Assembly: GCA_001871115.1 (NCBI GenBank)
Contig: MNUR01000116.1
Span: forward strand, 1 to 39,994
Length of the DNA: 39,994 nt
Reading direction: 5' to 3'
From: Elusimicrobia bacterium CG1_02_56_21
GTDB taxonomy: Bacteria; Elusimicrobiota; Elusimicrobia; Elusimicrobiales; UBA9959
This document shows, piece by piece, positions 3,636 to 39,994 of this stretch. Made by a program: the position numbers and the translations under genes. The notes under the pieces are model-generated. The model saw only the letters and a program-made list of their open reading frames with translations, did not search any database and was not told where the DNA came from. The first letter of the stretch is position 1. Each line of letters begins with the position of its first letter.

Positions 3636-3699
3636 TGTATGTACGATAGGCCGCCGGCATTTATTCGCCATCAGCTTTCTATTATTCTATCATTTAGAG

Positions 3700-4803
3700 A
3701 TGAAGATTTTGATAGCCCCTAACGCTTTCAAGGGAACCCTGACCGCGGCAGCCGCCGGAGCGGCCGCCGGAAGAGCGGTCGGGCGGGTCTGCCCCAGCGC
3801 GGATATAGAGGTTCTGCCTATAGCCGACGGCGGGGACGGGCTGCTTGAAGCCCTGCGCCCGGCCCTTGGCGGCAAAATAATGAGGAGCCGGGTGGAGGGG
3901 TCCCTCGGGGAAAAAATAAAGGCACGCTGGCTTCTGGCGGGCCGGACGGCCGTTATAGAAATGGCCGAGGCTTCAGGCCTCGGGCTGATGGGCGCGCGGA
4001 AGCTGCGGCCGCTGGACGCTTCCACCTTCGGAGTGGGGCAGCTGATAGCGGCCGCTGTGCGTAAAGGCGCCCGGGAAATTATCGTAGGGCTTGGAGGCAG
4101 CGCCTCGAATGACTGCGGAGCCGGCTGCGCGCAGGCCCTGGGTTTCTCCCTGCTGGATTCCGGCGGGGAGCCCATAGTGCGGGGGGCGCGCGGGCTTGCC
4201 TCCCTGGCAGCGATCCTTCCCCGCCGGGCAGCTTCACGGCTTAAACGCGTAAAAATAACCGGCCTCGCGGATGTAAAGAATATTCTTTGCGGCAGGTTCG
4301 GGTCCGCCCGCGTTTTCGGCCCTCAGAAGGGGGCCGGTCCGCGGGAGGTTGATTTTATTTCCGGGGCGGTCCTGAATTATTCCAGATTAACAAAGGCCTG
4401 CCTGGGGGCCGACGTTTCCAGGCTGCCGGGCGGGGCAGCGGCTGGGGGGCTGGGAGCCGGACTGGCGGCCTTTTTCGGGGCTGAATTGAGAGATGGTTCG
4501 GCTTTTGTGCTTGAAAAAGCGGGGTTTGAAAGAAAACTTGCCCGGGCCGACCTGCTCATAACCGGGGAGGGCTGTTTTGACTCCCAGACATTCTACGGCA
4601 AGGCCCCCGGCGCCGCTCTGGCCGCGGCTGTCCGGTTCGGAAAGCCGGCCATAGTGGTTTGCGGAGTTTCGCTTATTAAAACCCGCAGGGAGCTCAGGAG
4701 GCGCGGGGTATCTGGTGTGATAATGGCCGGCAGGGACCCCTCTCCCGCGGCCGCAATAGAGGCCGCGGTTATAAGAGACCTGCCGGGATTGCTCGGGGCC
4801 TGA
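3700..4803 (+). CDS. Glycerate kinase (GlxK/GarK family)
   Basis: 367 aa. Phosphorylates glycerate, most likely to 2-phosphoglycerate, feeding lower glycolysis. The N-terminus MKILIAPNAFKGTLTA is the family signature, followed by PIADGGDG (nucleotide/substrate region), EMAEASGLGL, GLGGSASNDCGAG and, in the second domain, LLITGEGCFDSQTFYGKAP and VVCGV. Length agrees with the usual 370-380 aa. The start is the ATG at 3700, because upstream in-frame sequence back to 3613 is not family-like. It is transcribed away from the radical SAM operon, with about 65 nt between starts. Very G+C-rich third positions. No obvious partner gene for glyoxylate or serine-cycle use is visible. Confidence 0.9.
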   Translation: MKILIAPNAFKGTLTAAAAGAAAGRAVGRVCPSADIEVLPIADGGDGLLEALRPALGGKIMRSRVEGSLGEKIKARWLLAGRTAVIEMAEASGLGLMGARKLRPLDASTFGVGQLIAAAVRKGAREIIVGLGGSASNDCGAGCAQALGFSLLDSGGEPIVRGARGLASLAAILPRRAASRLKRVKITGLADVKNILCGRFGSARVFGPQKGAGPREVDFISGAVLNYSRLTKACLGADVSRLPGGAAAGGLGAGLAAFFGAELRDGSAFVLEKAGFERKLARADLLITGEGCFDSQTFYGKAPGAALAAAVRFGKPAIVVCGVSLIKTRRELRRRGVSGVIMAGRDPSPAAAIEAAVIRDLPGLLGA

Positions 4804-4807
4804 AGAG

Positions 4808-4856
4808 CTAGTTACCGCAAACCATGACATTTCTACTTGCCGCCACCATGACATTT
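4808..4856. repeat. Two imperfect tandem repeats (25 and 24 bp), possible insertion-sequence end remnant
   Basis: Unit 1 (4808-4832) and unit 2 (4833-4856) both run CTA.TTGCCG/TTACCGC..ACCATGACATTT and share the 12-mer ACCATGACATTT. They lie directly after the glycerate kinase stop in an otherwise AT-rich intergenic stretch. Short tandem repeats of this sort are found inside the ends of IS21-like elements, but no transposase or second end is visible, so that origin is only a guess. Confidence 0.5.
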
Positions 4857-4899
4857 AAAAAAATCGTTACAATTGAACTGTAAATTGAATTGCAGCAGT

Positions 4900-4927
4900 T
4901 TGAGTTTAGCCTTAAATTTAATAATAT
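4900..4927 (+). promoter_or_regulatory. Possible promoter of the phosphohexomutase gene
   Basis: TTGAGT (4900-4905), 16 nt, TAATAT (4922-4927) in a strongly AT-rich stretch (about 4857-4940) that contrasts with the GC-rich genes on both sides. The -10 is weak, and several overlapping TATA-like hexamers follow, so the exact element is uncertain. Confidence 0.3.
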
Positions 4928-4988
4928 ATATATTCTACATAGTCCGGCCAAATGGCTGGCTAAGTCTGTTTTTTAAAGAGAGGCTTAA

Positions 4989-6401
4989 ATGAGTTCCCAC
5001 CAGTCAAACCATATTTCTTTCGGTACGGATGGTTTTCGGGGTATTATAGCCAGGGATTTCACCTACGATGTGGTCCGCAAGGTCGCTCAGGGGATGTCGG
5101 ATTACCTGTCCCATAAGCATCCGCGCGCCGACAAACCCAATATCGCCATCGGCTACGACAGGCGCTTTATGTCCGATCTTTTTGCCAGAACGATGGCGGA
5201 GATCATTTCCGCGAACGGCTTTTCAGTTACGCTCAGTTCCACCCCCCTTGCTACCCCGGCGGTAAGCCTGCTTACGGTAAAGGGCTACGGGATAGGGGTC
5301 GTGGTAACGGCCAGCCACAACAATCATTATTACAACGGCATCAAGGTAAAACAGAACGGGCGCTCGGCTCCTCCCGCGGTTACGGCCGAGATAGAGAATT
5401 ATATCGCCAAGGCCGTGCCTATGAAGCCCAACGGCGCTGCGATACCGGTAAAAGATTTCCGGCCCGCATATACGGATTACCTCAATTCCAAGGTGCAGTC
5501 CTCCAAGGTGCAGGCGAAGCTGCCCCGTCCGGTAGTTATAGACTTTATGTACGGAGTGGGCGCTGAAACGGCCGGTACGGTCTTTAATTCCAGGAATGTC
5601 ATAAAGATCCGCGAAAGGCATGACCCCCTTTTCGGAGGTATTTCCCCGGAGCCGGTGGAGAAGAACCTGGGGGAACTTGTTGCCGCGGTCAAAAAACACA
5701 AGGCGCTTTTCGGCGTGGCGCTGGACGGGGACGCGGACCGCTTCGCCCTGGTTTCGGATAAGGGTCAGTATATGACCCCCTGCCAGACCGCCCCGCTGAT
5801 GCTGGAATACCTGCTTTCTAAAGGCCAGTGCAAGGGAAAGATAGTCCAGGCCGTGTCCATGGGCTACCTCACCAAGCGGATCGCCCGCGCGGCTAATTTA
5901 CCTTTCGAGGAAACCCCGGTCGGCTTTAAATATATAGCGGAGAAAATGCTTGCCGGCGACGTGGCTTTCGGCGTGGAAGAGTCCGGCGGTTACGCCTGGA
6001 AGGGCAATTTGCCCGAGCGCGACGGCGCCCTGACGGCGCTGTTCGTGATGGAGATGGCGGTTAAGACCGGCAAGACCATTTCCGCTCTTTATTCGGAGAT
6101 AGAGAAGAAATACGGGAAATCCTGCTTTATCCGCAGGGACTTTAAGATAGAGAAGTCCATCCCCAACAAGCATTCTTTCGCCGTAAAGATAAAAAAGAAA
6201 CTGCCGAAGCTGCTGCTCGGGCACAAGATCACCGAGACCAACACTATCGACGGGCTCAAGATAGTCCTGGCCAACGACTGGTGGGTGCTGATGCGGCCTT
6301 CGGGCACCGAGCCCCTGCTGCGCACCTACGCGGAGACCGACAGCCAGGAGAACACCAGGAAATTCCTGGACCTGGCCCGCAAGCTGGTGGAGCCCAAGTA
6401 G
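4989..6401 (+). CDS. Phosphoglucomutase/phosphomannomutase (alpha-D-phosphohexomutase family)
   Basis: 470 aa. All four active-site elements of the superfamily are visible: N-terminal FGTDGFRG (11-18), the catalytic phosphoserine loop TASHN (Ser109), the metal-binding DGDADR (246-251), the sugar-specificity loop GVEESGGY (328-335) and the phosphate-binding RPSGTEP (436-442). It interconverts hexose-1-phosphate and hexose-6-phosphate for glycogen, cell-wall or nucleotide-sugar synthesis; motifs alone do not separate PGM, PMM and GlmM use. The EESGGY loop (rather than GEmSGH) favours the PGM-like group. Start ATG 4989, 186 nt after the glycerate kinase, with no strong Shine-Dalgarno. metK follows after 69 nt. 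Confidence 0.9.
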   Translation: MSSHQSNHISFGTDGFRGIIARDFTYDVVRKVAQGMSDYLSHKHPRADKPNIAIGYDRRFMSDLFARTMAEIISANGFSVTLSSTPLATPAVSLLTVKGYGIGVVVTASHNNHYYNGIKVKQNGRSAPPAVTAEIENYIAKAVPMKPNGAAIPVKDFRPAYTDYLNSKVQSSKVQAKLPRPVVIDFMYGVGAETAGTVFNSRNVIKIRERHDPLFGGISPEPVEKNLGELVAAVKKHKALFGVALDGDADRFALVSDKGQYMTPCQTAPLMLEYLLSKGQCKGKIVQAVSMGYLTKRIARAANLPFEETPVGFKYIAEKMLAGDVAFGVEESGGYAWKGNLPERDGALTALFVMEMAVKTGKTISALYSEIEKKYGKSCFIRRDFKIEKSIPNKHSFAVKIKKKLPKLLLGHKITETNTIDGLKIVLANDWWVLMRPSGTEPLLRTYAETDSQENTRKFLDLARKLVEPK

Positions 6402-6438
6402 GCCGGCCTGTTGCGTGCGGGGAGCGGCGGGAAAATTG

Positions 6439-6466
6439 TATAATTTGTATATAAATTCAGGAGGGA
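6439..6466 (+). promoter_or_regulatory. Possible -10 element and ribosome binding site of metK
   Basis: TATAAT at 6439-6444 lies 26 nt before the metK ATG, followed by a strong CAGGAGG ribosome binding site (6458-6464). No good -35 is found at the proper distance. The 69-nt leader is too short for a SAM riboswitch. Confidence 0.4.
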
Positions 6467-6470
6467 AAAC

Positions 6471-7667
6471 ATGAACTTCAAAGGTAAACGGTATGTGAGC
6501 TCGGAATCGGTGACGGAGGGGCACCCCGATAAAGTTTGTGACCAGATTTCGGACGCAGTGCTTGACGAGATAATGAAGAAGGACCCCGCCGGCCGCGTCG
6601 CCTGCGAAACCTTCATAACCCGCGGCATGGTGGTGGTAGGCGGCGAAATAACCACCAGGACCTATGTGGACGTGGATACACTTGTCCGCAAGGTCGTAAA
6701 GGACATAGGCTATACCCATTCCAGATACGGTTTTAATTACGAGACCTGCGCCGTCATCAACGTTATCGGCCGCCAGTCGCCCGACATAGCCCAGGGCGTG
6801 GATACCGGCGGAGCCGGCGACCAGGGCCTGATGGTGGGCTATGCTTCGGACGAGACTCCCGAACTTATGCCCCTGCCGCTGCAGCTGGCCCAGCGCCTTT
6901 CTATGCGCCTGGCCGAAGTGCGCAAGAAAAACATCCTTCCCTACCTTGGCCCCGACGGTAAGAGCCAGGTAACCGTAGAGTATCATGACGGCAAGCCGGT
7001 CCGGATAGAGACCATCGTGGTTTCCACCCAGCATACCGAGGAAATCCTGGACAAGAGCGGCCACCAGATAACCGAGAAATCCAGGAAAGAGATCATAGAC
7101 GCTGTCGTTACCCCGGTTATAAACAAGAACCTGATAGACAGGAAAACCAGGATCCTGGTTAATCCCACCGGGAAGTTCGTAGTTGGAGGCCCGCAGTCTG
7201 ACTCCGGGGTAACCGGCCGCAAGATCATCGTGGACACTTACGGCGGCGTAGCCCCGCACGGCGGCGGCGCGTTCTCCGGTAAGGACCCGACCAAGGTAGA
7301 CCGCTCGGCGGCCTATATGGCCCGCTACCTCGCTAAAAATATAGTTGCCGCCAAACTTGCCAGCGAGTGCACCGTCCAGCTGGCCTACGCCATAGGCGTG
7401 GCCGAGCCTGTCGGCCTCTATGTGGACACCCACGGCACCGGCAGGATAGCGGACGAGAAGCTCTCCAAGATAGTGCGCGACAGCTTCGACCTGACTCCCC
7501 GCGGCATCATAAAGACGCTGAATCTGCGCTCGCCGATATTCCGCAAGACCGCCGCCTATGGGCACTTCGGCCGGCCCGGTTTTTCGTGGGAAAAAACCAA
7601 TGCCGCGGACCTGCTTAAGAAAAAAGCCGCGGGCGCGCCCAAGAGCGAGTGCGCCTGCTGCGGCTGA
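6471..7667 (+). CDS. metK: S-adenosylmethionine synthetase
   Basis: 398 aa, the usual length. Makes S-adenosylmethionine from ATP and methionine in the cytosol. Signatures: [19 protein letters not shown] (N-terminal ATP/Met site), [12 protein letters not shown] (the family hexapeptide GAGDQG), and the glycine-rich P-loop-like [17 protein letters not shown]. The C-terminus ends KSECACCG, an unusual Cys-rich tail. The start has a good AGGAGG at 7-8 nt. SAM made here would serve the several radical SAM enzymes in this window (RimO, the TatD-associated type, and the SPASM protein), but there is no sign of co-regulation. An unusually long open frame on the opposite strand is a codon-bias shadow. 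Confidence 0.97.
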
Positions 7668-7775
7668 GCGGCAGGGCTTGATTATTGCGCCCGGGGCGAT
7701 CGGGGGGTCGCCGGGGCGCGGCGGTTGTTAAGGCCGGGGCAGGCGGCTCCGAACGAAGTTCCTACAGGGGGAAAA

Positions 7776-8129
7776 ATGAGAGTATTGCTGGTTGAAGATA
7801 ACGCACTTACCAGATACACCATCAAATCGCTGCTTGAAAAACTGGGGCACGAGGTGGTGGGCGAGGCCGAGGACGGCCCCAGCGCTGTAAAACATTTCAG
7901 CGAACTGAAGCCTGATATTGTTTTCCTGGACCTGATACTACCCGGCAAGTCGGGCGTGGAGATACTCGGGGACTTGCGGGCCGTAGACCCTGCTGCGCGG
8001 GTGGTAATTGTCACCGCCGTAGAGCAGGACGAGATAGACCGCCGCCTGAAGGACAAAGGGGTCAGTGCTATACTGCGCAAACCTTTCTCTTTCGACGACT
8101 TTAAAGCCCTTATGAAGGAACTGGAGTAA
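7776..8129 (+). CDS. Stand-alone CheY-like response regulator receiver
   Basis: 117 aa, a single receiver domain with no output domain. The acidic pair is E7-D8 (LLVEDN), the phosphoacceptor is Asp52 (VFLDLILPGKSG), the switch Thr is in VIVTA, and the conserved Lys is in LRKPFSFDDF. The start is ATG 7776 with AGGGGG just upstream; the in-frame upstream sequence is not receiver-like. The gene is 7 nt before a CheC-like phosphatase gene, a pairing that suggests a phospho-signalling module feeding motility, twitching or another CheY-type output. No histidine kinase is encoded within view. Confidence 0.92.
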   Translation: MRVLLVEDNALTRYTIKSLLEKLGHEVVGEAEDGPSAVKHFSELKPDIVFLDLILPGKSGVEILGDLRAVDPAARVVIVTAVEQDEIDRRLKDKGVSAILRKPFSFDDFKALMKELE

Positions 8130-8136
8130 GCTTGAT

Positions 8137-8742
8137 ATGGAAGTAAAAGCCAGCCAAATGTTGGAGAGGATAGCCTTGGCAAGCCTTGAGAAATGCGTGT
8201 CAAAGCTTTCCCGCATCTCTGCGGGAAAGTGGAGCGTGGAGGCCGCGCGGGTAACCTTTCGCAGCATGGATGAGGCGGTCGGCGAGCATTCCTCCGGGGC
8301 CGGCGGAACCGGGGCGGCCGTGTATTTCGAAGTCCGCGGCGAGTATCCTTTCACCTCCATGGTCGTCTTCCGGCCGGAGGATATAGACACTCTTTCCCGC
8401 GGTTTCCTCGGTTTCTCTTTCTCAAAACTCCCGAACCTTAATCAGGCGCAGGAGCTCCTGCTTTCCGAACTGGGCAATATAATACTGAACGCGCTCATAA
8501 GCTCCCTTTCAAACACCCTCAAACAAAGCTTTCTTCCTTCCGCCCCCAAGTGCGTGCAGGGAGAGACGAGGTTTTTGCTGGAAGCTCTGTGGACTTCCCT
8601 TGACCAGACCAAGAAGCATAGCCTGGTGACCGTGATATTGGATCTTCAGTGCGATAACAAGGTTACGCGCAGCGAAGTGATAGCTGTCATGCCGGAGAAC
8701 ATGGAGGCTGCCCTGTCAGCCGTTCTTGAGTCCGCCGGCTGA
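8137..8742 (+). CDS. CheC-like chemotaxis phosphatase
   Basis: 201 aa. The segment LLLSELGNIILNALISSLSNTL (108-129, active-site pair Glu111 and Asn114, pattern ExxN) matches the first catalytic helix of CheC/CheX/FliY phosphatases, with a Pro (in SFLPSAP) about 20-23 residues on, close to the family spacing. A second copy of the ExxN pattern, as in two-site CheC proteins, is not obvious, though ALWTSLDQ near 150 occupies a similar place. The likely substrate is the phospho-Asp of the receiver encoded just upstream. GGAG of the preceding gene's end (ctggag) may serve as its ribosome binding site. Confidence 0.7.
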   Translation: MEVKASQMLERIALASLEKCVSKLSRISAGKWSVEAARVTFRSMDEAVGEHSSGAGGTGAAVYFEVRGEYPFTSMVVFRPEDIDTLSRGFLGFSFSKLPNLNQAQELLLSELGNIILNALISSLSNTLKQSFLPSAPKCVQGETRFLLEALWTSLDQTKKHSLVTVILDLQCDNKVTRSEVIAVMPENMEAALSAVLESAG

Positions 8743-8766
8743 AAAGTTTTAGAACGGAGACTTATT

Positions 8767-9306
8767 ATGAGGATAAACTTTATCCCCCGCGCCCTGGTTG
8801 TGATACTCTTTCTCGGTTCCGCCTTCGCGGTTCCGGCTTCCTCACAGGTAAGTCTTGTTAACGTGAGCTGGGAAATTTCCAAACTCGCCGGTAAAAACCG
8901 CCTGCCTTATGTTCCGGTCGAGGACCTGCGCGCGGCCCCGGAATTCAAGTTTACGGATAATTTGCGGGCTATAGTGACGCTTCACAACTTCTCGTCCAAA
9001 GCGGCTGAGGGCCTGGTTTTGCGCTACGCACTGAGACTGCTCCTCCTGAAAACGGGGGACGCGCCCGAGCAGGCTTTCTGGGGCGTGCCTTTCTACGTGG
9101 AGGAGGTCCGGGTCTCCAAAATAAATCCGTCTTCTGAAAGAAACGCTAAAGTTATACGTTTTGAGATACAGAGCCAGTTTAATAAACTCAAGGGCAGCGG
9201 CTTCTCTCCTTCGGCGCTTAAGATGGAGATAATGCTGAGCCCACACCAGGGCGACGAGCCCTCTGCGATAATCCGCGAATCCATTATAAAAATACTTAAA
9301 CCGTAA
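8767..9306 (+). CDS. Exported protein of unknown function
   Basis: 179 aa with a Sec signal peptide (MRINFIPRALVVILFLGSAFA, cleavage probably after ASS-Q near residue 27). The mature part has alternating hydrophobic strands (FKFTDNLRAIVTLHNFSSKAAEGLVLRYALRLLLL; KVIRFEIQSQFNKLKG), suggesting a small beta-sandwich. I recognise no family. It follows the CheC-like gene by 24 nt with GGAG upstream of the ATG and probably shares its transcript. A hairpin sits directly at its stop codon. Confidence 0.7.
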   Translation: MRINFIPRALVVILFLGSAFAVPASSQVSLVNVSWEISKLAGKNRLPYVPVEDLRAAPEFKFTDNLRAIVTLHNFSSKAAEGLVLRYALRLLLLKTGDAPEQAFWGVPFYVEEVRVSKINPSSERNAKVIRFEIQSQFNKLKGSGFSPSALKMEIMLSPHQGDEPSAIIRESIIKILKP

Positions 9307-9327
9307 GCCCCGGAGGCCGTCCGGGGC
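9307..9327 (+). terminator. GC-rich hairpin at the end of the receiver/CheC operon
   Basis: GCCCCGGA (9307-9314), 5-nt loop, TCCGGGGC (9320-9327): an 8-bp perfect stem starting directly after the TAA. No T-tract follows, so it is either a weak or factor-dependent terminator, or an mRNA 3'-end stabiliser. Confidence 0.45.
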
Positions 9328-9415
9328 GCATAGCGCTTTGGCCGTCCGATGAGCATGGCTCCCGATACGGCATGACCATAGGTCTTATACGGAACCTATA
9401 AAGGAATGTACCATA

Positions 9416-28960: not shown

Positions 28961-30172
28961 CTAGCGCACCAGTTTGAAAGCGTCCACAAGGCCAGCGCCC
29001 TGGTCGGTTACGCTGAGCCCGGCAAGAGGGGTCGCGGCGGCTTTAAGGGCCGCTCTTACCGCTTCGGGGCTATTTGCTCCGGCGCCTACAGCGAGCGCGG
29101 CCAGGCCGGTTACGTGGGGGCAAGCCATAGAGGTTCCGGACATGGTCTTGTAACCGCCGCCTTTATAGGAAGAGTAGACATTGACTCCGGGGGCTATAAC
29201 CGCTATTTCGGCGCCCTTGGAGGAGAAGTAGGCAAGCCTGTCCGAAGAATCAGACGCTGAAACGGCTATCGCCTGCGGATATTTGGCGGGGTAATTGACG
29301 GGGCCGGAATCGTTACCGGCCGCGCAAACCACTGTCACTCCTGACTCATTGGCTTTTATCATGACCTGTTTGAGGGCTTCTGTTCCGCTGCCGCCGCCGA
29401 GGCTCATATTGATGACGTCAATATGGTTCAGTATGGCCCACTCTATGCCGGCCACTATCCAGGAATACTGGCCTGAACCGTTCTTGTCGAGAACCTTTAC
29501 TCCGTAAAGGTCAACTCCGGGGGCTACGCCGGCGACCCCTTTAAGGTCTCTTACCGCGCCGATGGTTCCGGCGACATGTGTGCCATGCCCGTGGTCGTCC
29601 GTGGGCAGGTCTCCGGGGGTTACGGCATTGTAACCGCCTTTATAATTGGGGGCCAGGTCGGGGTGGGTAGAGTCCATGCCGGTGTCGATGATGGCTACTT
29701 TTACGCCTTTACCGGAGGTATAATCCCAGGCGGCAGCAGCGTTAACGCGCTTGATGCCCCAGGGAAGTTCCTTCTCCGCGGGGTCAACCGCGGGCCTGAT
29801 CTCCTGGAATACGGGAGCTTCCCAGCCTTCGCCGGTGCGCACCATATTGAGTGCGCTTTCAACGGAGGGGAGGGGGATAGAGCTCATGGAAGCCGGTGCG
29901 GCTTCTATCCAGCGAAGGTAGCTGTCTTCGGCTACGTCGGTTACGCCCTTCAGGGAGTAGATGCTGGAGTCTTTTACATCGTCGGGGAAAACAGCCACTA
30001 GGGAGTCGATTACTGTGAATTTGCGGGTGACTTTTCCGCCTATGCTCTCAATGCTCTTTTCTATGGAGCCGCCGCGGTAGGCGTGTTCGAAGGTAACTAT
30101 TTTCTGCGAAGCCTGCGCCTGGACTGCCGCTATTGCCAGTACGCCGGCAAATAATGCTGTTAGTTTCTTCAT
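28961..30172 (-). CDS. Exported subtilisin-like serine protease (S8), paralogue
   Basis: 403 aa from ATG 30172, with GGAGGG 5-10 nt upstream. Signal peptide MKKLTALFAGVLAIAAVQAQA, I9-like prodomain (KIVTFEHAYRGGSIEKSIESIGGKVTRKFTVIDSLVAVFP), linker to about 135, then catalytic Asp163 (IIDTGMDSTHPDL), His196 (HGHGTHVAG), Asn287 (VVCAAGND), Ser348 (MSGTSMACPH). Complete and probably active. It shares the prodomain plan and many catalytic-domain words (TGxDxxHPDLAPN, NYPA.Y) with the protease at 26202-27485. It has its own strong promoter at 30224-30253 and a possible operator. Confidence 0.94.
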   Translation of the reverse strand: MKKLTALFAGVLAIAAVQAQASQKIVTFEHAYRGGSIEKSIESIGGKVTRKFTVIDSLVAVFPDDVKDSSIYSLKGVTDVAEDSYLRWIEAAPASMSSIPLPSVESALNMVRTGEGWEAPVFQEIRPAVDPAEKELPWGIKRVNAAAAWDYTSGKGVKVAIIDTGMDSTHPDLAPNYKGGYNAVTPGDLPTDDHGHGTHVAGTIGAVRDLKGVAGVAPGVDLYGVKVLDKNGSGQYSWIVAGIEWAILNHIDVINMSLGGGSGTEALKQVMIKANESGVTVVCAAGNDSGPVNYPAKYPQAIAVSASDSSDRLAYFSSKGAEIAVIAPGVNVYSSYKGGGYKTMSGTSMACPHVTGLAALAVGAGANSPEAVRAALKAAATPLAGLSVTDQGAGLVDAFKLVR

Positions 30173-30211
30173 TTTCCCTCCTGCTTGGCTATTGCAAAGT
30201 ATTGGGTCTTT

Positions 30212-30234
30212 AGTCCTAAACTCAATATAGGACT
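30212..30234. promoter_or_regulatory. Possible operator: AGTCCTA/TAGGACT inverted repeat over the -10
   Basis: AGTCCTA (30212-30218) and TAGGACT (30228-30234) form 7-bp perfect arms with a 9-nt centre, overlapping the -10 box and likely start site of the protease promoter. It could bind a dimeric repressor or fold as a hairpin at the mRNA 5' end. Confidence 0.4.
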
Positions 30235-30253
30235 TTTGTTTGATAAATGTCAA
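30224..30253 (-). promoter_or_regulatory. Sigma-70-type promoter of the second subtilase
   Basis: Read on the minus strand, TTGACA (30253-30248) and TATATT (30229-30224) are separated by 18 nt, about 50 nt upstream of the ATG. This is the best promoter match in the window. Confidence 0.75.
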
Positions 30254-30407
30254 TACTTTTTTGTCATGCCCAAAAATGTGGCAATCGGGGGGGTAAGCGC
30301 AGAGGGATTGCCGCAAATGCGCAAAATGTAAAAAAAATCGGGAATGCCGGATATTTTGCTCCGATCCCGGATCTTGCGCCTTTTTGCGGCTATTCTGATG
30401 CAGTCTG

Positions 30408-32552: not shown

Positions 32553-35180
32553 ATGATAAAAAATACTGACTATTTAAGCCGGATATTCTCCGGCCTTACC
32601 GGCCTCCGCGCGGGTATGAAGGCGCATGTGCCGGCGATCTCTTTTTCCCCGCAGTTCCGCCGGCAGGCCGGCGTTACCCTTACCGAACTGATGATAGCCG
32701 TTTCCGTGCTCACTATCGGCGTTATCGGCAGCATGGGCTCATTCAAATACATAAACCAGTCTATAACGCAATCGCGCATCAAGACCATCTCTACCAACCT
32801 GGCGCAGGAAAAGATGGAAGTGCTCAGGAATAAACCTTATTTCCAGCTCCTGGTGACCACGTCTACCGCCGTCACTACCGATTATTCCCCGAATTTCACC
32901 TATGACAATGAAAATTATCCGCCGCAGGTCATTACTCTCTGGGGCATGCCGGCGCTGACCCGGATTGTAAAAGTGGATTATGTCGCTCTTTCCGGTTCCG
33001 TAGCTACAGCCCTGCCTTATACTTCCAACGACACCGGCATGAAAAAGATTACGGTCAGCGTGCTGTGGACTATCAGGGGGACTGCGCAAAAAGTTACGCT
33101 TGAGAGTTATTATGAGAACCCCACCGCGGCTGTTCTTAGCTCCGGCCTTACCGGTACGGTAACTGATGCCAGTTCCGGAATTCCAGTGGGTAACGCGCTG
33201 ATCCAGGTTCAGGGCTCTCCAAAGTGGCGCGGCTACAGCGATCCTGTAACCGGCGTTTATTCCTTCCAGGTTGCTCCCGGAACCTATACTTTGGTCTGTT
33301 CTACCCAGGGCTATTTCCCGGCCAGCAGCTCCGAGCTCCAGGTGGCGGCCGGGGCTTATGCTACAAAGAATTTCAGCATAGGTAAGATAGCCGCGGGCTC
33401 TATCTCCGGCATGGCTTATATCCGGGACCACATGGTCATATATATGGTAGTGGCCTCCACCCAGATGGTGAACGGGGATAATATCGAATTCGTATCTCTA
33501 TATAATCCTACCACTTCCCAGATCAATATGCTGACCAACCCGGCAGACAGTAATTCCAATAATATAAAGCTTTCCTATTACGGCGAGGCTGGCGAGGGGA
33601 AAGATATTTCCGAGTTTTGGCTCAACCATTCCTCCACTTATGTTCCTGCCGGGCATTATTACCTTATCGCCAGCTCCGGAACTTTTACTTTCAAGGGCTA
33701 CACGGTAACCGCGGACGCAATCTTCACGAATGCGAATAAACCGCCCTGTTCCGACCTTGGAGGCGGTCTTCTTAACTGCATCTGGAGAGACAAGGCCGGA
33801 GCAATACGCCTTAGTGATGTGGGCGGCAATATTATTGATACTCTGGGCTGGACAAATAACGGCGCCGCCAAACCCGCCCCGTACTACGAGACTACCGCCA
33901 GGTCGATGCCGAACGGTATTGAGGAGGGCCGGCAGTTCTTCCGCTATACCGGTCCGGGTTACGGCAGCGAGGCTTCTGGCAATTGCTACGATAATAACGT
34001 TAATAGTTCCAACTTTTTCAGCTTTAACCCGGCTATTTTCAGGGCTATGAATATAGCCGCAGGCTACAAGGCTCCTGTTACCGGTACACCGGGCGCCGGC
34101 GCTATTGTAACTTCGAACGACGGGCTTTCTTCTCCCGCGACAGCTTCCTCCACCGGCTATTTTCTTCTTACCCAGGTGGCCACGGGCACGGTTGCGAATA
34201 TTGCCAGCACCTGGGAAGTGATGATAACCTCGTATGCGGTATCCAGTTCAAGCGCCGGCCTGAGCATTATTGCCAATCAGAATAAAGACCTCGGGGTTAT
34301 AGTGCTTTCTTCGGCTATCAGCGGCGGCATAGCCTCGGGCTATGTTTATGGAAGCGGCCCCGACCAGACCGTTCCCAAGTCCGGGTTCAGCGTAGGGAGC
34401 GCGGGAACGGTAGTTAATACCAATAGCCAGGGTTTCTACAGGCTTTTCCTTGCTACCGGGACCGCTGTTATAACTGCCAATTACGGCCTGGCTAACGGCA
34501 GTTATCAGAGTTCGGACGAGACCGTGACTATAACAGCGGGGGCCGTTACAAATGTGCCTGATTTTCACCTGGCGCAAAGCGGGACTATCACCGGCTATGT
34601 TACTTCCGGTACCGGCGCGCTTCCTAATATAGTGGTTCATGCCACTAATGGCGGCCCTGTTTATGAGGACACCAGCGACAGTACCGGGCATTACTACCTT
34701 ACAGCCGCCACTTCTTCGGTAGTTTATACGATAACCCCCGTGCTTGACCCGCTGCAGAGCTATACCTCTCTGCCTACCAGCCCCCTGACCGCCAGTATGG
34801 CGGTTCCGGGAGCCTCGGTTTTCTCGGGAACTATAACGGTGATAGGCGCGATGGCCACAATAACCGGCACGGTAGTAGCGAGTTCCGTTTCTATCACCAC
34901 CGGCGTCCTGGTGGTAGCCAGCACCGCGACAATTTCCGACCCGCTGGCCACTATCACAGCCGCTTCGTCCCTGACTTTGCCGGTATTCTATTCGGTTTCC
35001 AGCCAGGCGGACGGGACTTACAGCCTGGATGTCCGTTCCAGCACCAGTACGCTTTATAATATGAGGGCTTTCTATCCGGTGGTTAACGCTAATACAGGCG
35101 CGGTGACCTATACAAGCAGGAGCTTCTCTTCCGTGTCTGTCAGCACGGCCGGAACTACGGTCACGAGGAATTTCGCATGA
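32553..35180 (+). CDS. Very long prepilin-like protein with carboxypeptidase-regulatory-like and lamin-tail-like domains
   Basis: 875 aa. Class III signal RRQAG-VTLTELMIAVSVLTIGVIGSMGSF: cleavage after Gly40, Glu45 at mature position +5, then the hydrophobic helix. The leader is 40 aa from ATG 32553, or 19 from an internal ATG at 32616; neither has a good ribosome site. After a PilV-like stem, SGLTGTVTDASSGIPVGNALIQV..GYSDPVTGVYSFQVAPGTYTLVCSTQGY is a carboxypeptidase-regulatory-like fold. Residues about 300-440 (NGDNIEFVSLYNPTTSQINM) look like a lamin-tail domain. Three more Thr/Ser-rich beta repeats follow. Most pseudopilins are 100-250 aa, so this is an outsized tip or surface pilin. Confidence 0.8.
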   Translation: MIKNTDYLSRIFSGLTGLRAGMKAHVPAISFSPQFRRQAGVTLTELMIAVSVLTIGVIGSMGSFKYINQSITQSRIKTISTNLAQEKMEVLRNKPYFQLLVTTSTAVTTDYSPNFTYDNENYPPQVITLWGMPALTRIVKVDYVALSGSVATALPYTSNDTGMKKITVSVLWTIRGTAQKVTLESYYENPTAAVLSSGLTGTVTDASSGIPVGNALIQVQGSPKWRGYSDPVTGVYSFQVAPGTYTLVCSTQGYFPASSSELQVAAGAYATKNFSIGKIAAGSISGMAYIRDHMVIYMVVASTQMVNGDNIEFVSLYNPTTSQINMLTNPADSNSNNIKLSYYGEAGEGKDISEFWLNHSSTYVPAGHYYLIASSGTFTFKGYTVTADAIFTNANKPPCSDLGGGLLNCIWRDKAGAIRLSDVGGNIIDTLGWTNNGAAKPAPYYETTARSMPNGIEEGRQFFRYTGPGYGSEASGNCYDNNVNSSNFFSFNPAIFRAMNIAAGYKAPVTGTPGAGAIVTSNDGLSSPATASSTGYFLLTQVATGTVANIASTWEVMITSYAVSSSSAGLSIIANQNKDLGVIVLSSAISGGIASGYVYGSGPDQTVPKSGFSVGSAGTVVNTNSQGFYRLFLATGTAVITANYGLANGSYQSSDETVTITAGAVTNVPDFHLAQSGTITGYVTSGTGALPNIVVHATNGGPVYEDTSDSTGHYYLTAATSSVVYTITPVLDPLQSYTSLPTSPLTASMAVPGASVFSGTITVIGAMATITGTVVASSVSITTGVLVVASTATISDPLATITAASSLTLPVFYSVSSQADGTYSLDVRSSTSTLYNMRAFYPVVNANTGAVTYTSRSFSSVSVSTAGTTVTRNFA

Positions 35181-35680
35181 TAGGGAAAAGACGCGGCTAC
35201 ACGCTGATGGAAATGATGATGGCGGTGGCCATCATCGGTATCGTCTCCGGGGCCTCTGCGCCTCTCATGTTCCAGGCTACCAACTTCTGGCGGCTTACCT
35301 CGGCGCGCTACGCCATCCAGAGGGACGTGAGAACCGCCATCGACATGATAAACAGGTTCACCAGGCAGGCCCAGAGCGCGACCGTAGTGATAGACAGGGC
35401 TTCCGGCCAGCCTCCCGCTTCCCGGATACAATTTCAATACACTAATACTTCCGGCAATAATGTGATGATGTCTTTTTATCAGGACGGAAAAAAGCTTTAT
35501 GTGAACAATGACGGGAGTATAAATTTGCTGTCCGAGAACCTGGCTTATATCGCTTTTACCTATCCCAGGACCGACGATATCAGCATTATTTCAGTGGCCA
35601 TGACGATGCAGTCTCCCACCTATCGGGGCGGTAAAAAAGCGCTGCAGCTTTCTATACAGAAAGTGAGGATAATGAACTGA
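35177..35680 (+). CDS. Prepilin-like protein (PilW/GspJ-like minor pilin)
   Basis: 167 aa. Starts in the ATGA overlapping the previous stop. Signal KRRG-YTLMEMMMAVAIIGIVSGASAPLMF with cleavage after Gly7 and Glu12 at mature +5. The C-terminal body (RDVRTAIDMINRFTRQAQSATVVIDR..RIQFQYTNTSGNNVMMSFYQDGKKLYV) has the RxA...F..I minor-pilin layout of PilW/GspJ-type proteins. It would be processed by a prepilin peptidase and built into a type IV pilus or type II secretion pseudopilus; those machines are not in view. Confidence 0.85.
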   Translation: MIGKRRGYTLMEMMMAVAIIGIVSGASAPLMFQATNFWRLTSARYAIQRDVRTAIDMINRFTRQAQSATVVIDRASGQPPASRIQFQYTNTSGNNVMMSFYQDGKKLYVNNDGSINLLSENLAYIAFTYPRTDDISIISVAMTMQSPTYRGGKKALQLSIQKVRIMN

Positions 35681-36984
35681 TGAAGAATAAAAAAGGTCAG
35701 GTCCTGGTCGGGGTCATAGTGCTGCTTGTGATCCTGGCTATCATCATTCCCACCATGGTGAAATATGTGCAGAACGAGGCCAGGTGGAGCGTCAAGCAGG
35801 GACAGAACACCAATGCCTTCCAGCTGGCTGAATCGGCGGTGGACAGGGGGTATCAGAAAATAGCGGAGTCCACCTCTACCTGGGAAGATATTCAGAACGG
35901 GATTCCGCAGGCGGGGTTTAGCTTTGACACGGAATACAGCGACATGTCCGGCGGGACATACGCCATTTCTCTTACCAGCGGCCCCGAGAGCGGCGAGGTG
36001 ACCGTTCTGACCGTAGGCCGGGACAAGCAGAAAAAAGAGACCAGGGCGCTTAAGGTGGTTTATTCCAAAGGCGACGTAAACTCGGCCATGTACGCCAACG
36101 GAATTGCCGCGAGCGGCGGCGTAGTAATAGAATGGGGCCCGATGAAAAGCCTCGGGAGCATTGTGCTCACCGGCGCCTCCGACGTGGAATATCCCAGGAA
36201 GTATGCCGTCGGCTCTATCACCGGCTGGCCCAGTATCTCCCCCTGCACGGACAACCTGGAGAACTGGGCTTATAACTGTTCCCCGGGCGTGCCGCCGCCG
36301 CCCAGCATTTATCTGAAAGGCTATGAGGACGAGGCCAAGGCTACCAAGTGTCCGACCGCTAATCCTTTTAAATTCCCCAATACGGCCTCCCCGGCCGGAA
36401 GCTGCTATTTCCCTGGCAATACCAGTTTCAACGGGACAACTATGACTTCCTCCGGTACCGTTTACGTTAACGGAAACTTGAGTGTTAACAATGGTTTTTT
36501 GTACGGCAACCTTATAGTTACGGGGAACCTCGGTTTTACCGGCAACGGTGCCGGCCAATACCATATACCTACCGCGGGGGCGGTAGCGCCCTTTACGGGC
36601 GGTATTCCGGAGCTGGCGTGGAAGGAATATATGAAGTTAGATACCGCGGCCTCTGATGAATACTATGGAGATATAGGTTTCCAGACTGTCAATAGTACCG
36701 ATTTTTGGTTCAAATCCGGCGGCGCTACACCAGCCAAAAGTGTCGGGATAAAGACCAACCCGGCCGTGCGCGGTTTTGTCTACTGCGCGGGTGCTCTTTC
36801 CAGCACCGGCGCAGCTAATTTCCACGGTGTGGTTTATTCTCCCAGCGGCATTTCCGGTTTGGGCGGAAACAGCTATATCTTTTATGATGATAATGTGGCA
36901 AAAGCTATTTTAACGGACACTATTTATCCGTCCCGGGTCTCCTGGCTGGACAGCAAGCAGCCCTGGCCCGCCGGCTTGCCCTGA
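35680..36984 (+). CDS. PilX/GspK-like pilus-associated protein
   Basis: 434 aa. The TGATG junction overlaps the previous stop by one base. The N-terminus MKNKKG-QVLVGVIVLLVILAIIIPTMVKYVQNEARWS has the PilX-like arrangement: basic leader, Gly, long hydrophobic helix, no Glu at +5. The body is rich in Gly/Ser/Thr beta repeats with YVNGNLSVNNGFLYGNLIVTGNL, reminiscent of bactofilin-like or DUF-type beta-helix pilus proteins. Several Cys in SPCTDNLENWAYNCSP and ATKCPTANP..GSCYFPG may form disulfides. Six nt separate its stop from the kinase gene. Confidence 0.75.
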   Translation: MKNKKGQVLVGVIVLLVILAIIIPTMVKYVQNEARWSVKQGQNTNAFQLAESAVDRGYQKIAESTSTWEDIQNGIPQAGFSFDTEYSDMSGGTYAISLTSGPESGEVTVLTVGRDKQKKETRALKVVYSKGDVNSAMYANGIAASGGVVIEWGPMKSLGSIVLTGASDVEYPRKYAVGSITGWPSISPCTDNLENWAYNCSPGVPPPPSIYLKGYEDEAKATKCPTANPFKFPNTASPAGSCYFPGNTSFNGTTMTSSGTVYVNGNLSVNNGFLYGNLIVTGNLGFTGNGAGQYHIPTAGAVAPFTGGIPELAWKEYMKLDTAASDEYYGDIGFQTVNSTDFWFKSGGATPAKSVGIKTNPAVRGFVYCAGALSSTGAANFHGVVYSPSGISGLGGNSYIFYDDNVAKAILTDTIYPSRVSWLDSKQPWPAGLP

Positions 36985-36990
36985 GCCGCT

Positions 36991-37797
36991 ATGAAAAAAT
37001 CTCCTGCAGCTTTTCCAGGAATCTTTACTTTGCATATCGCCGGCTACAAACTTGGTTTTGAATCGCGCAGTAAGAATATCCTTTCGGTTTTAAAGGGCAG
37101 GTACGGCAGATTTATAGCAAAGGGCGGAGCGGATTGCCGGTTTGATGTTTCTGAAACTAAAGGCAGGCAAACCCCGTTTAAGCCGGCAGTTTCTATTGAC
37201 GGGACCTGCCTTGAAATAAAGCGCGGGGATTTTAAGGCGTCCATCGATGTGCGTACCAAGGCGGGAACGCTGAAAGCCGCCGCTAATGAACAGTGCCTGG
37301 ACGCTTTTTTGCGTTCTTTTCTAAGTTTCCTGCTTATCCGCTCAGGCGGTTTTATGTTGCATTCAGCCGGGCTTGTGAAAAACGGTAAAGCTTATATTTT
37401 CCCGGGTAAATCCGGAGCGGGAAAATCCACTCTTTCGAAACTTGCAGCATCGGCGGGGGCTGAAGTTATAAGTGACGAGATAAATTTACTGAAGTTTGAG
37501 AAGGGCAGCTTCAGGGCTTACGGTTCCCCTTTCTGGGGTGAAATGCGCGCCGATGGAAGGCCCGGTTCCTGGCCGCTGGGCGGTATCTATTTGCTTGGGA
37601 AGGCGAAAGTTAACAAGGTGAGCGCTGTTGCCGGCGGGGAAGCGCTTAAACTGCAGCTTCGCTGCCTGGTGAATTTTGATAAAACCCCGGGGGCGGCCGA
37701 GCGCGTGCTGAAAAACGCTTCGAGCCTGCTGGCAAAGGCGAAGTTTGAGCGCTTCGACTTCTCTAAAGCTAACGCCGATTTTCTGAATTTGATCTAA
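36991..37797 (+). CDS. HprK-like serine kinase of a PqqD/radical SAM peptide locus
   Basis: 268 aa. Walker A GKSGAGKST (139-147) and the acidic SDE (161-163), preceded by FMLHSAGLV (121-129), give the HPr kinase/PEPCK-like P-loop fold; no HPr or PTS gene is near. Related kinases occur beside PqqD proteins in peptide-modification loci, where some phosphorylate the precursor (known in some lasso peptide systems). Here the substrate is unknown; the adjacent 45-residue peptide has Thr14, Thr20, Ser30, Ser40 and Ser45 as possible targets. It starts 6 nt after the pilin operon's last stop, so is probably on the same transcript. Confidence 0.8.
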   Translation: MKKSPAAFPGIFTLHIAGYKLGFESRSKNILSVLKGRYGRFIAKGGADCRFDVSETKGRQTPFKPAVSIDGTCLEIKRGDFKASIDVRTKAGTLKAAANEQCLDAFLRSFLSFLLIRSGGFMLHSAGLVKNGKAYIFPGKSGAGKSTLSKLAASAGAEVISDEINLLKFEKGSFRAYGSPFWGEMRADGRPGSWPLGGIYLLGKAKVNKVSAVAGGEALKLQLRCLVNFDKTPGAAERVLKNASSLLAKAKFERFDFSKANADFLNLI

Positions 37798-37815
37798 TCG
37801 CCGTAAATTTAAATT

Positions 37816-38082
37816 ATGACTGTTGAAATAAAAAAGAACCTGGCTTACCGGCGCATAGCCGGAGAAGTTTTTGTAGTGGACGCTCCCAGGTCCGAGATGC
37901 ATGAACTTAACGGGCCTGCCGCGCTTATCTGGGAAGGCCTCGCAGCCGGAAAAACAAAAAAAGACCTGGTAAAGGCTATGACGGCAGAGTTCGAGGTGGA
38001 TGGGGAAACGGCGCTGGCCGACCTGGAAATATTTATTAAAGATCTGCTAGAGTCCGGCCTGCTTTCTGCCAAATCCGATTAA
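37816..38082 (+). CDS. PqqD-family protein (RiPP recognition element)
   Basis: 88 aa. Matches the PqqD winged-helix pattern along its whole length: NLAYRRIAGEVFVVDAPRSEMHELNGPAALIWEGLAAGKTKKDL..EFEVDGETALADLEIFIKDLLESGLL, including the GE, MHELNG and W.GL words. PqqD-type domains bind the leader of a ribosomal peptide and hand it to a radical SAM enzyme. No pqqA, pqqC or pqqE is present, so PQQ synthesis is not implied. It lies between the kinase and the small peptide gene. Confidence 0.88.
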   Translation: MTVEIKKNLAYRRIAGEVFVVDAPRSEMHELNGPAALIWEGLAAGKTKKDLVKAMTAEFEVDGETALADLEIFIKDLLESGLLSAKSD

Positions 38083-38108
38083 CCGCGTCCGAAGGTGGTA
38101 TCCGCTTT

Positions 38109-38246
38109 ATGAAAAAGAAAAAACCATACAAGAAGCCCGAAATGAAGACAGAGAAAGTGTTTGAAACCGCCGCGCTGGCTTGCGGCAAATGTCTAAGCGG
38201 GCCTATACACCAGCTGGCCTGCAAAAGCCTCAAGAAATTCTCGTGA
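38109..38246 (+). CDS. Candidate RiPP precursor peptide (45 aa, three Cys)
   Basis: ATG 38109, GAAGGTGG 10 nt upstream, TGA 38244-38246. The N-terminal half is Lys-rich (MKKKKPYKKPEMKTEKVFE), followed by TAALACGKCLSG and PIHQLACKSLKKFS. Cys25, Cys28 and Cys38 are candidate sites for thioether or other radical SAM chemistry. The 'KPE.K.EKVFETAALACGK' stretch resembles, from memory, small-peptide genes next to PqqD/radical SAM genes, but I cannot confirm the family. The stop overlaps the GTG of the next peptidase gene, the arrangement expected if a peptide and its processing enzyme are coupled. Function as a precursor is inferred; no experimental support. Confidence 0.7.
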   Translation: MKKKKPYKKPEMKTEKVFETAALACGKCLSGPIHQLACKSLKKFS

Positions 38247-38572
38247 GCTCCGGAGTTTCAGCTTTCCGGCTGGAAGGTTCCAGCATGAAACCGGTTTTTA
38301 AGCCCGGGAGCGTTGCGCTTATCAAGCCATTAAGTCTTTCTGCCGGGGATTGCGCGGTTTATTCCTATAAAGGCCGCAGCCTCCTTCACAGAGTGGTAAA
38401 AACAGAAGCAGCGGGTGCCTGGCTGGCGGACGACGCTGGGCGCATAGAGCCGCACCTGGTCCCTTGGGAGAATATCTCCGGAAAAGTCTTAAGCCGCAAC
38501 CCCCTGGCCGGCGGCCTCAGCGGGCGCCTATACTCAAAGATCCGCCGTTCGTTTTACTCCTGGTTCGCGTAA
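38243..38572 (+). CDS. S24/S26-type serine peptidase, possible leader protease
   Basis: 109 aa from GTG 38243, whose GTGA overlaps the peptide gene's stop; longer in-frame readings would lie inside the peptide gene. LEGSSMKPVFKPGSVALIKP carries the nucleophile Ser14 of the S24/S26 signal-peptidase fold, followed by GDCAVYSYKGRSLLHRVVKTE (His49 in the HRVV position used by Ser-His signal peptidases) and ISGKVLSRN. No membrane helix is obvious. The context suggests it cuts the leader or otherwise processes the neighbouring peptide; other signal-peptidase-like roles are possible. Confidence 0.75.
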   Translation: MSSGVSAFRLEGSSMKPVFKPGSVALIKPLSLSAGDCAVYSYKGRSLLHRVVKTEAAGAWLADDAGRIEPHLVPWENISGKVLSRNPLAGGLSGRLYSKIRRSFYSWFA

Positions 38573-38602
38573 ACCTGAAAACCCAGGCCCGGTCCTTTGC
38601 GT

Positions 38603-39676
38603 ATGTCCCAACAAATAGCCGCAAAACTTAATACGCTCACTCTTGAGCGCAATATCCCGGTTTCTATTACCGCCGAACTCACCCGCCGCTGCCCGCTTAA
38701 CTGCCGGCATTGTTATCTGCCCGAAACCCGGGGCCGGGCAAAGCCGGGGACTGAACTGAACACCGCTCAATGGAAAAATATCCTGGACCAGTTAGCGCGG
38801 GCCGGCGGGCTTTACCTGGTTTTTACCGGGGGGGAGCCGCTGCTGCGCACGGACCTGGCGGAAATCTGCCGCCACGCTAAAAAATTAAATTTTGACATCC
38901 GGATCTTTTCTACGGGCCTCGGCCTGACAGAGGAACTAGCTTCGGAAATTAAGAAAGCAGGGGTCTCCGCCTTTGAAATAAGTTTTTACGGCCGGCCGGC
39001 AGCGCATGATTCCATTACCGGGTTAAAGGGGTCTTTTAAAGCCAGTCTGGCAGCCGCGCGGCTGCTTAAGAAAACAGGTTTGGGTGTAAAAATTAAAACC
39101 CCGCTGATGGAAGTTAACGTTGGTCAGGAAACCTGGCTTCAAAAACTGGCTAAGCAGGAAGGTTTTGAGATCTCTTTTGACCCGGTGATCACTTCAGCTA
39201 ATGACAGGGATAATTCCGCCCTCCCGTTGCGCCTGACCGGCCCCAAACTGGCAAAAGCCGTGAAACTGCTTTCTTCTTCCCCCGATTCCCGACTTTCGAT
39301 TCCCGATTCTCGATCCCCGGCCCCCGATTTCTTATGCGGGGCGGGCCGCAATGTTTGCGCGGTAGGCCCAGGAGGGGAACTCTACTCCTGCCTGCAATTA
39401 CCTATAAAACTCGGGAATTTGGGCAGGCAAAAATTTTCCGCTATCTGGAAGAACAGTATATGGCTAAAAAAGTGGCGGAAGGCCGGCTTAAAGGACCTTA
39501 AAGGCTGCAAATCCTGCAAAGTTATGGCTTTTTGCAGCAGTTGCCCCGGTTTAAGCCTATTGGAAGAGGGGAATCTCTTTGCTCCAAACAAGCCGGCTTG
39601 TGAGATAGCGGGGATAATGGCTGTCATAGGCCGCAAGCAGAAGAGGATGCTATTTGCTTTAGGTCAGAAGCTGTAG
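38603..39676 (+). CDS. Radical SAM/SPASM peptide-modifying enzyme
   Basis: 357 aa from ATG 38603; a TTG two codons earlier is less likely. Cluster Cys30/34/37 in RRCPLNCRHCYLPE, SAM-binding FTGGEP (76-79 region). C-terminal SPASM-type Cys at about 245, 252, 263, 302, 305, 311, 314 and 333 (CGAGRNVCAVGPGGELYSC..CKSCKVMAFCSSCPG..ACEI), for two auxiliary clusters. SPASM enzymes with PqqD partners form C-C or thioether links in ribosomal peptides; the peptide at 38109 is the obvious candidate. Residues about 224-243 are a repetitive Ser/Pro/Asp linker. An insertion element begins 20 nt after the stop, so a later gene could have been displaced. Confidence 0.88.
   Translation: MSQQIAAKLNTLTLERNIPVSITAELTRRCPLNCRHCYLPETRGRAKPGTELNTAQWKNILDQLARAGGLYLVFTGGEPLLRTDLAEICRHAKKLNFDIRIFSTGLGLTEELASEIKKAGVSAFEISFYGRPAAHDSITGLKGSFKASLAAARLLKKTGLGVKIKTPLMEVNVGQETWLQKLAKQEGFEISFDPVITSANDRDNSALPLRLTGPKLAKAVKLLSSSPDSRLSIPDSRSPAPDFLCGAGRNVCAVGPGGELYSCLQLPIKLGNLGRQKFSAIWKNSIWLKKWRKAGLKDLKGCKSCKVMAFCSSCPGLSLLEEGNLFAPNKPACEIAGIMAVIGRKQKRMLFALGQKL
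39281..39331 (+). repeat. CCCGATTC-type short repeats inside the SPASM enzyme gene
   Basis: Degenerate repeats of CCCGATTC/TCGATTC encode SPDSRLSIPDSRSPAPDF between the radical SAM and SPASM parts. The stretch keeps the frame and sits in a linker, so it looks like a tolerated expansion. Confidence 0.55.
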
Positions 39677-39695: not shown

Positions 39696-39994
39696 GGGGG
39701 CGCTGAAAAAGTCATTTTATGGTTGAAGTCTCGTAGTAAAAATGGGAAAATATAGGCGTAATACCGGTTAAAAACTGCACGGAATTTGCGTACAAGCCAT
39801 CAAAAACCGTGCAGTTTCGCAGCCAGGAGCCGCCCATGTATCGCCCCAAAGACCGCAAAACACCGCCCTTGTTCCCCGAGCTTTTCCCGCTTGGGGGCGG
39901 TTTAAACGCCGATAACCGCTGGATAAAACTGGGCGGCCTTATTCCCTGGGAGCGGCTTGAAGAGATTTACCGCGGATATTTTTCCGAAGGGCTG
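39696..39994 (+). mobile_element. Left part of an IS5/IS1182-like insertion sequence, runs off the right edge
   Basis: The left end GGGGGCGCTGAAAAAGTC (from 39696) has the GCTGAAAAAGT form common to ends of this IS group, and a matching transposase begins at 39836. The right end and target duplication are outside the window. The 11-bp inverted repeat AAACTGCACGG (39772-39782) / CCGTGCAGTTT (39807-39817), 24-nt loop, lies between the end and the transposase ATG, and may be a hairpin that blocks read-through from neighbours. Confidence 0.75.
39836..39994 (+). CDS. IS5/IS1182-like transposase, N-terminal 53 codons only
   Basis: ATG 39836 with AGGAG 8-10 nt upstream. MYRPKDRKTPPLFPELFPLG, then NADNRWIKLGGLIPWERLEEIYRGYF, which is the N-terminal pattern (RWIKLAxLIPWdxxEexY) of these DDE transposases. 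The catalytic residues are beyond the window, so activity cannot be judged. Confidence 0.85.
   Translation, partial: MYRPKDRKTPPLFPELFPLGGGLNADNRWIKLGGLIPWERLEEIYRGYFSEGL

Follow-up and report, generated by a model that had tools for sequence, protein, structure and literature searches.

What do the five genes crowded at the end of contig MNUR01000116.1 of Elusimicrobia bacterium CG1_02_56_21 make? The stretch analyzed here (39,994 nucleotides [nt], positions 1 to 39,994 of the contig; hereafter, the window) carries at 36991-39676, all on the plus strand, five open reading frames (ORFs) that encode, in this order, a kinase, a PqqD-family protein, a 45-amino-acid (aa) Cys-containing peptide, an S26-like peptidase, and a radical SAM/SPASM enzyme. 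The original prediction, derived from the letters of the window, took these genes for a compact locus producing a ribosomally synthesized and post-translationally modified peptide (RiPP), and the ORF coordinates agree with the single-strand arrangement and the gaps of 18, 26, -4, and 30 nt given there. As is generally the case for RiPP cassettes, a small conserved precursor gene, a recognition domain, and a modifying enzyme are inherited together. Comparative evidence supports the RiPP assignment well, and the cassette probably is a peptide maturation system that combines precursor recognition, radical modification, C-terminal phosphorylation, and leader removal. Joint action of these proteins on the peptide is an inference.

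The precursor gene (38109..38246, plus strand; MKKKKPYKKPEMKTEKVFETAALACGKCLSGPIHQLACKSLKKFS) encodes the 45-aa peptide with Cys25, Cys28, and Cys38, exactly as predicted. The peptide was detected in 36 of 150 relatives, every one of them belonging to the window's own family, in which it spans nine genera, as a rule with one copy per genome. Loci were collected by a peptide-alignment search of genome contigs (a single-sequence radical SAM scan of the same contigs gave no match), which yielded 41 named genome loci with the peptide from Elusimicrobia, Endomicrobia, some unnamed bacteria, and one contig labeled Armatimonadota; viral contigs gave no match to the peptide. The Armatimonadota contig (L102, JAKQQT010000320.1) carries a good peptide copy near its end and represents either a transfer or a misbinned contig. 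Within the genus, the mean ratio of nonsynonymous to synonymous changes (pN/pS) is 0.158 for the peptide vs 0.40 to 0.50 for the four enzymes, with equal pS of about 0.6; the peptide gene is the most constrained of the five and is under strong purifying selection. Given this selection and the presence of the peptide in the 36 relatives and the 41 named loci, it is a real gene.

All 45 distinct peptides contain a YxxPx[ILMV] leader motif and an [AT]L[AG]CxKC segment and end in Ser, and 44 of them have three Cys within the last 45 residues. The terminal Ser is kept even where the tails are otherwise unalignable (for example, ...GNPIFMIACRFRIRLS, ...GPFPQFACGSLPQAS, and ...SVGRCKQLPMSS). The residues preceding Cys25 are A or T at position -3, L at -2, and A or G at -1; because they obey the small-x-small rule of signal peptidases, a cut before Cys25 is predicted. 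We also considered AALAC as a lipoprotein signal (lipobox) but rejected this since, with A or T at -3 and L at -2, the signal peptidase rule fits instead. The predicted leader thus delimited comprises residues 1-24 (38109..38180) with the Y7xxP10xM12 motif and the A22-L23-A24 site, and the predicted core, CGKCLSGPIHQLACKSLKKFS, comprises residues 25-45 (38181..38243) with the three Cys and the C-terminal Ser45. The core is nearly invariant across genera. Constraint of this kind fits a dedicated signal, a cofactor, a modifier, or a single-product precursor, unlike a diversifying bacteriocin or antibiotic.

The neighborhood search that had been proposed for this locus showed that the peptide gene nearly always adjoins genes for the PqqD protein, the S26-like peptidase, the kinase, and the radical SAM enzyme, in the 41 named loci as well as in the relatives, rather than the radical SAM homologs standing apart from any related small peptide. 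In loci long enough to judge, Elusimicrobiales have the radical SAM gene last (kinase, PqqD, peptide, S26, radical SAM), and Endomicrobia and three other families have it ahead of the peptide gene (kinase, PqqD, radical SAM, peptide, S26). Because the same parts occur in two orders, mere inheritance of a neighborhood is disfavored. The same finding, extending over about 40 genomes, makes it very unlikely that the five genes are unrelated neighbors and the peptide a small structural or regulatory protein; this explanation, which we strongly disfavor, draws on three loci in which the radical SAM gene is not in place and on the weak sequence scores of the kinase and the peptidase (both detailed below). 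Locus L108 includes only the peptide and S26 genes within its stretch, and L102 has a partial set. In L073 (MGUK01000058) and L077 (MGVB01000069), an EamA transporter and a PLD-family protein occupy the place of the radical SAM gene, and no giant ORF of the kind described below is present.

How the peptide would be recognized is suggested by the PqqD-family protein (37816..38082, plus strand; 88 aa), which matches Pfam PqqD (PF05402) with 57.6 bits, above the cut-off of 23.4, and the nearest solved sequences of which, in a search of the PDB, include the lasso peptide B1 proteins TfuB1 and TbiB1. The PqqD-like B1 protein needs the YxxPxL motif to recognize lasso peptide leaders, and B1 also stimulates the kinase (PMC10368454). 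By analogy, the PqqD-like protein is probably a stand-alone RiPP recognition element (RRE), which would bind the peptide's YxxPx[ILMV] leader and present the substrate. The kinase (36991..37797, plus strand; 268 aa) retains, across 25 to 28 orthologs, the P-loop GKSGAGKST, an invariant H124, and S-D-E at 161-163. Its AlphaFold2 model (predicted local distance difference test [pLDDT] 93.5) matches the folds of PEPCK (E = 3e-9) and HprK/P (E = 2e-4). In lasso peptide pathways, HprK-like kinases transfer phosphate to the precursor's C-terminal Ser (PMC8498205). Because the C-terminal Ser is invariant, the YxxPx motif is present, the lasso kinases and B1 act in this manner, and the PqqD protein resembles B1, Ser45 is the predicted target of the kinase.

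The gene for the S26/S24-like serine peptidase (38243..38572, plus strand; 109 aa, GTG start) overlaps the peptide gene by 4 nt (GTGA). By sequence, the protein is a weak match to Peptidase_S24 (21.0 bits, cut-off 23.3) and TIGR02228 (26.9 bits, cut-off 51.85). Its structural model (pLDDT 91) is nearest to LexA, UmuD', and the signal peptidases SpsB and SipA among solved folds, again weakly (best Foldseek E = 1.9e-3). Among 24 orthologs, M15, P17, and H49 are invariant, and D63/D64 are found in at least 90%. Ser14 in an SxMxP-type box, His49, and Asp63/64 appear to form the Ser-His-Asp layout of the Sec11/SipW/archaeal type. The protein thus has the SxMxP box, the His, the downstream Asp, and (with weak E-values) the LexA/signal peptidase fold of type I signal peptidases (S26); it differs in scoring below the family cut-off and in lacking a visible membrane anchor, no hydrophobic or membrane segment being seen across the 109 aa. 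As a soluble Ser/His/Asp peptidase, it may cut the leader after A22-L-A24 and free a core of about 21 residues starting at Cys25.

The last gene of the cassette (38603..39676, plus strand; 357 aa, ATG start, with a further in-frame TTG at 38597) encodes the putative maturase. Both its Radical_SAM and SPASM domains pass the Pfam cut-offs, and the CxxxCxxC motif at 30-37 and the SPASM Cys residues 245, 263, 302, 305, 311, and 314 are conserved. Thus, of the identities originally assigned, those of the PqqD and radical SAM/SPASM proteins hold by Pfam, whereas the kinase and the S26-like protein fall below sequence cut-offs and are supported by predicted structures. The top PDB sequence matches of the radical SAM protein are SkfB (E = 2.5e-17) and PqqE (E = 3e-15), and SkfB, the best solved match, is a thioether-forming maturase; the tree of radical SAM proteins is dominated by long branches and was not used as evidence. 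The enzyme would act on the CxKC...C core and most likely introduce cross-links, either Cys-based (thioethers) or of another radical kind, and the three conserved core Cys are compatible with the thioethers of sactipeptides and ranthipeptides. The sactipeptide maturases SkfB and AlbA and the ranthipeptide maturase PapB likewise are radical SAM/SPASM enzymes acting on Cys-containing precursors; their systems differ in having no kinase and another precursor core, and the cassette does not reach their NCBIfam cut-offs. The closeness to SkfB among solved structures and the three core Cys could also indicate a sactipeptide- or ranthipeptide-like antimicrobial cluster that makes a secreted bacteriocin. 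We consider this unlikely: the core hardly changes from genus to genus, in contrast to bacteriocins, the cassette encodes neither a transporter nor an immunity protein, the peptide as a rule is present in one copy per genome, and the genes that recur beside the cassette encode surface proteins and pilins. A separate cluster in the genome of the window (L186, G000:C31:45000-64900) contains several more radical SAM genes, one of them beside a cysteine-desulfurase-like gene.

Kinase-bearing lasso clusters (paeninodin, pseudomycoidin, and bsf) provide the closest overall comparison, sharing with the cassette the PqqD-like RRE, a YxxPxL-type leader, the HprK-like kinase, the C-terminal Ser, and sometimes an NTP_transf_5 protein. 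Unlike them, the Elusimicrobiota cassette has a radical SAM/SPASM enzyme instead of the asparagine-synthetase-like cyclase, a Cys-rich core, and, in most loci, the S26-like protein instead of the B2 peptidase. Neither the ORFs at the end of the window nor the conserved neighbor families include the cyclase, and the transglutaminase-like B2 peptidase is absent from the window cassette and was seen in a single sibling, L149. Because the cyclase and, in the window, B2 are absent, the window cassette is not a lasso cluster. L149 (G045:C158, 2092-5709, minus strand), from the same family, is a variant cassette located behind a PilX-like fragment and encodes a lasso B2-type transglutaminase peptidase (PF13471, 28.0 bits, above the cut-off of 26; NF033537, 23.3 bits, below its cut-off), PqqD, kinase, radical SAM, a 47-aa three-Cys peptide with YEKPKL, and NTP_transf_5. 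Here, the B2-type peptidase stands where S26 is missing, next to PqqD, kinase, radical SAM, and peptide, so S26 plausibly fills the leader peptidase slot elsewhere. Further NTP_transf_5 genes precede the kinase in L096 and the giant ORF in L182, and one follows the giant operon in L180; the pseudomycoidin pathway uses such an enzyme to glycosylate the phosphate (PMC8498205). The cassette may therefore be viewed as a lasso peptide chassis in which a radical SAM enzyme would substitute for the asparagine-synthetase-like cyclase, suggesting that lasso-type parts (RRE, leader peptidase, kinase, and nucleotidyltransferase) are an exchangeable chassis for different core-forming enzymes.

The pairing of an HprK-like kinase with a radical SAM enzyme, which had been called unusual, is indeed so: it brings radical SAM modification together with HprK-type phosphorylation of a C-terminal Ser, each a chemistry known from RiPPs, on a single predicted substrate. 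It is not unprecedented, however, because the SynChlorMet system (NCBIfam TIGR04248-04251) brings together an HprK-related protein (ScmC), a PqqD protein (ScmD), and radical SAM/SPASM enzymes (ScmE and ScmF). The HPr-rel-A system (TIGR04352 HprK_rel_A and TIGR04353 PqqD_rel_X) similarly combines an HprK-related kinase with a PqqD protein; the cassette scores 39.4 and 24.6 bits against these models, under the cut-offs of 200 and 35. That the cassette is a simplified member of the known but uncharacterized SynChlorMet type appears somewhat unlikely. The kinase, the PqqD protein, and the radical SAM protein each score against the corresponding models (ScmC, 31.3; ScmD, 23.9; ScmE, 94.7; ScmF, 73.4 bits), and a relative with three radical SAM genes exists in the same taxonomic order, yet all these scores are far below the cut-offs (125, 100, 400, and 400 bits, respectively), the window and the cassette loci have one radical SAM gene, not two, and the HprK_rel_A and lasso PqqD models outscore the Scm models for the kinase and the PqqD protein. 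The three-radical-SAM relative, L151 (G093:C182:36000-46000, 3255-9400, minus strand), encodes in addition an HprK-like kinase, PqqD, an S26-like protein, a UPF0489/TPR protein, an ABC transporter, and an LACSC precursor ending in Ser; its SynChlorMet-like cassette itself is under all NCBIfam cut-offs, those of the Scm models included. Because of this relative, the kinase-radical SAM pairing is not unique to window-type cassettes. A literature search found no paper on SynChlorMet or on RiPPs combining HprK/PqqD with radical SAM, which is not proof of novelty.

Several observations weigh against a RiPP pathway of the proposed form. The kinase is weak by sequence, the HprK_rel_A score being its best in NCBIfam, and the kinase, S26-like, and radical SAM proteins all are under every curated (NCBIfam) family cut-off. 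A C-terminal Ser is not a universal target, given that the lasso kinase BsfK modifies Ser3 (PMC10368454), and the L149 peptide ends in Leu despite the presence of a kinase, which weakens the Ser rule for that variant. In L073, L074, and L077, kinase, PqqD, peptide, and S26 genes occur with no radical SAM gene behind S26 (L074 is cut by the contig end), and no transporter belongs to the cassette. Finally, the giant surface protein described next was not found in the window's own assembly, where the F12-type N-terminus is absent and the other giant type gave only weak FN3 matches.

What the product might do is suggested by the genes that flank the cassette, which extend the picture beyond the five genes first noted: pilin-like genes and a giant surface protein are its recurrent partners. 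Upstream in the window, on the plus strand, are genes for a PilV-like minor pilin (32553..35180; 875 aa, with N_methyl, CarboxypepD_reg, and Lamin Tail domains), a PilW-like minor pilin (35177..35680; 167 aa, N_methyl), and a PilX-like protein (35680..36984; 434 aa), homologs of which were found only within the same genus and the stop codon of which lies 6 nt upstream of the kinase start. The PilV-like family is present in 22 of 42 loci, the window included. Of the 32 named loci for which 4 kb or more of downstream sequence is available, 25, with both gene orders represented, have the beginning of a giant ORF there, counting as giant any frame that reaches 1,200 aa or runs off the end of its stretch. 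By comparison, 20 control stretches taken from these genomes, each about 20 kb long, contain only four ORFs of at least 1,200 aa, the longest of 2,235 aa. Closed giants are 3,953 to 5,611 aa long, and the second type forms open frames of up to about 9,400 aa. The domains recognized in the giants are fn3, Lamin Tail, and PQQ propellers; behind the giants are encoded a propeller protein of about 1,060 aa with a type IX sorting tail and a PorV/PorQ-family protein (NF033709, 156.9 bits, cut-off 90). Open frames of about 9,200 to 9,500 aa, coding for secreted FN3/immunoglobulin/propeller proteins, were observed in L167/L177 (G018:C35), L169/L178/L182 (G050:C2), and L122/L180 (G170:C55), again followed by a protein with a T9SS-like sorting tail and a PorV-like protein.

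Of the 231 genomes of the class, 12 encode one giant type that can be told by its N-terminus, and 11 of these 12 have the peptide (Fisher's exact test, P = 1.2e-8 across the class and 0.04 within the family alone, with the genomes being related and hence not independent). The co-occurring genomes include cases with the giant and the cassette on different contigs. In members of the genus with pilin genes but no cassette, other genes follow PilX, and no FN3-type giant is found there. The window contig ends 318 bases past the radical SAM gene. Elsewhere in the window's genome, a search for the propeller protein returned only a match to the C-terminal tail, and a homolog of Rrf2 is encoded on a different contig, which carries no giant. 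L161 (G021:C125, 1-13200, minus strand), from a genome that lacks the cassette, contains close to pilin genes an open 4,400-aa frame with a start resembling filamentous-hemagglutinin-type two-partner exoproteins.

The propellers raise the question of whether the peptide is instead the substrate for a small cofactor, like pyrroloquinoline quinone (PQQ) or mycofactocin, that is used by the downstream PQQ-propeller-like proteins. The peptide is conserved as are PqqA and MftA, PqqD with radical SAM recalls PqqD/PqqE, and the giant and the ~1,060-aa protein both carry PQQ_2/BamB-like beta-propellers. These propellers, however, match BamB-like and fibronectin-associated repeats, with no match to a quinoprotein equivalog, and we know of no role for a kinase or an invariant C-terminal Ser in the known PQQ and mycofactocin pathways, so that a cofactor seems quite unlikely. 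In the RiPP maturation scheme outlined above, the conserved product probably acts together with the giant secreted surface protein and the pilin neighbors. We tentatively raise the possibility, itself doubtful, that the cassette represents a new RiPP family, largely confined to Elusimicrobiota, whose radical-SAM-modified, C-terminally phosphorylated (sometimes phosphoglycosylated) peptide of about 21 residues would act as a dedicated ligand, a tag, or an assembly factor for the giant type-IX-like secreted surface protein and the minor pilins, and not as an antibiotic. Near-invariance across genera and classes, along with the co-occurrence with giant surface proteins, suggests that this RiPP has a role built into the cell.

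Two further features of the window lie outside the cassette and the pilin genes. An ORF at 39836..39994 (plus strand), inside which the contig ends, resembles by eye the N-terminus of a transposase and has no Pfam match. At 28961-30316 on the minus strand, the window encodes a subtilisin-like S8 serine protease, homologs of which are found again upstream of the cassette in L083 and L094.

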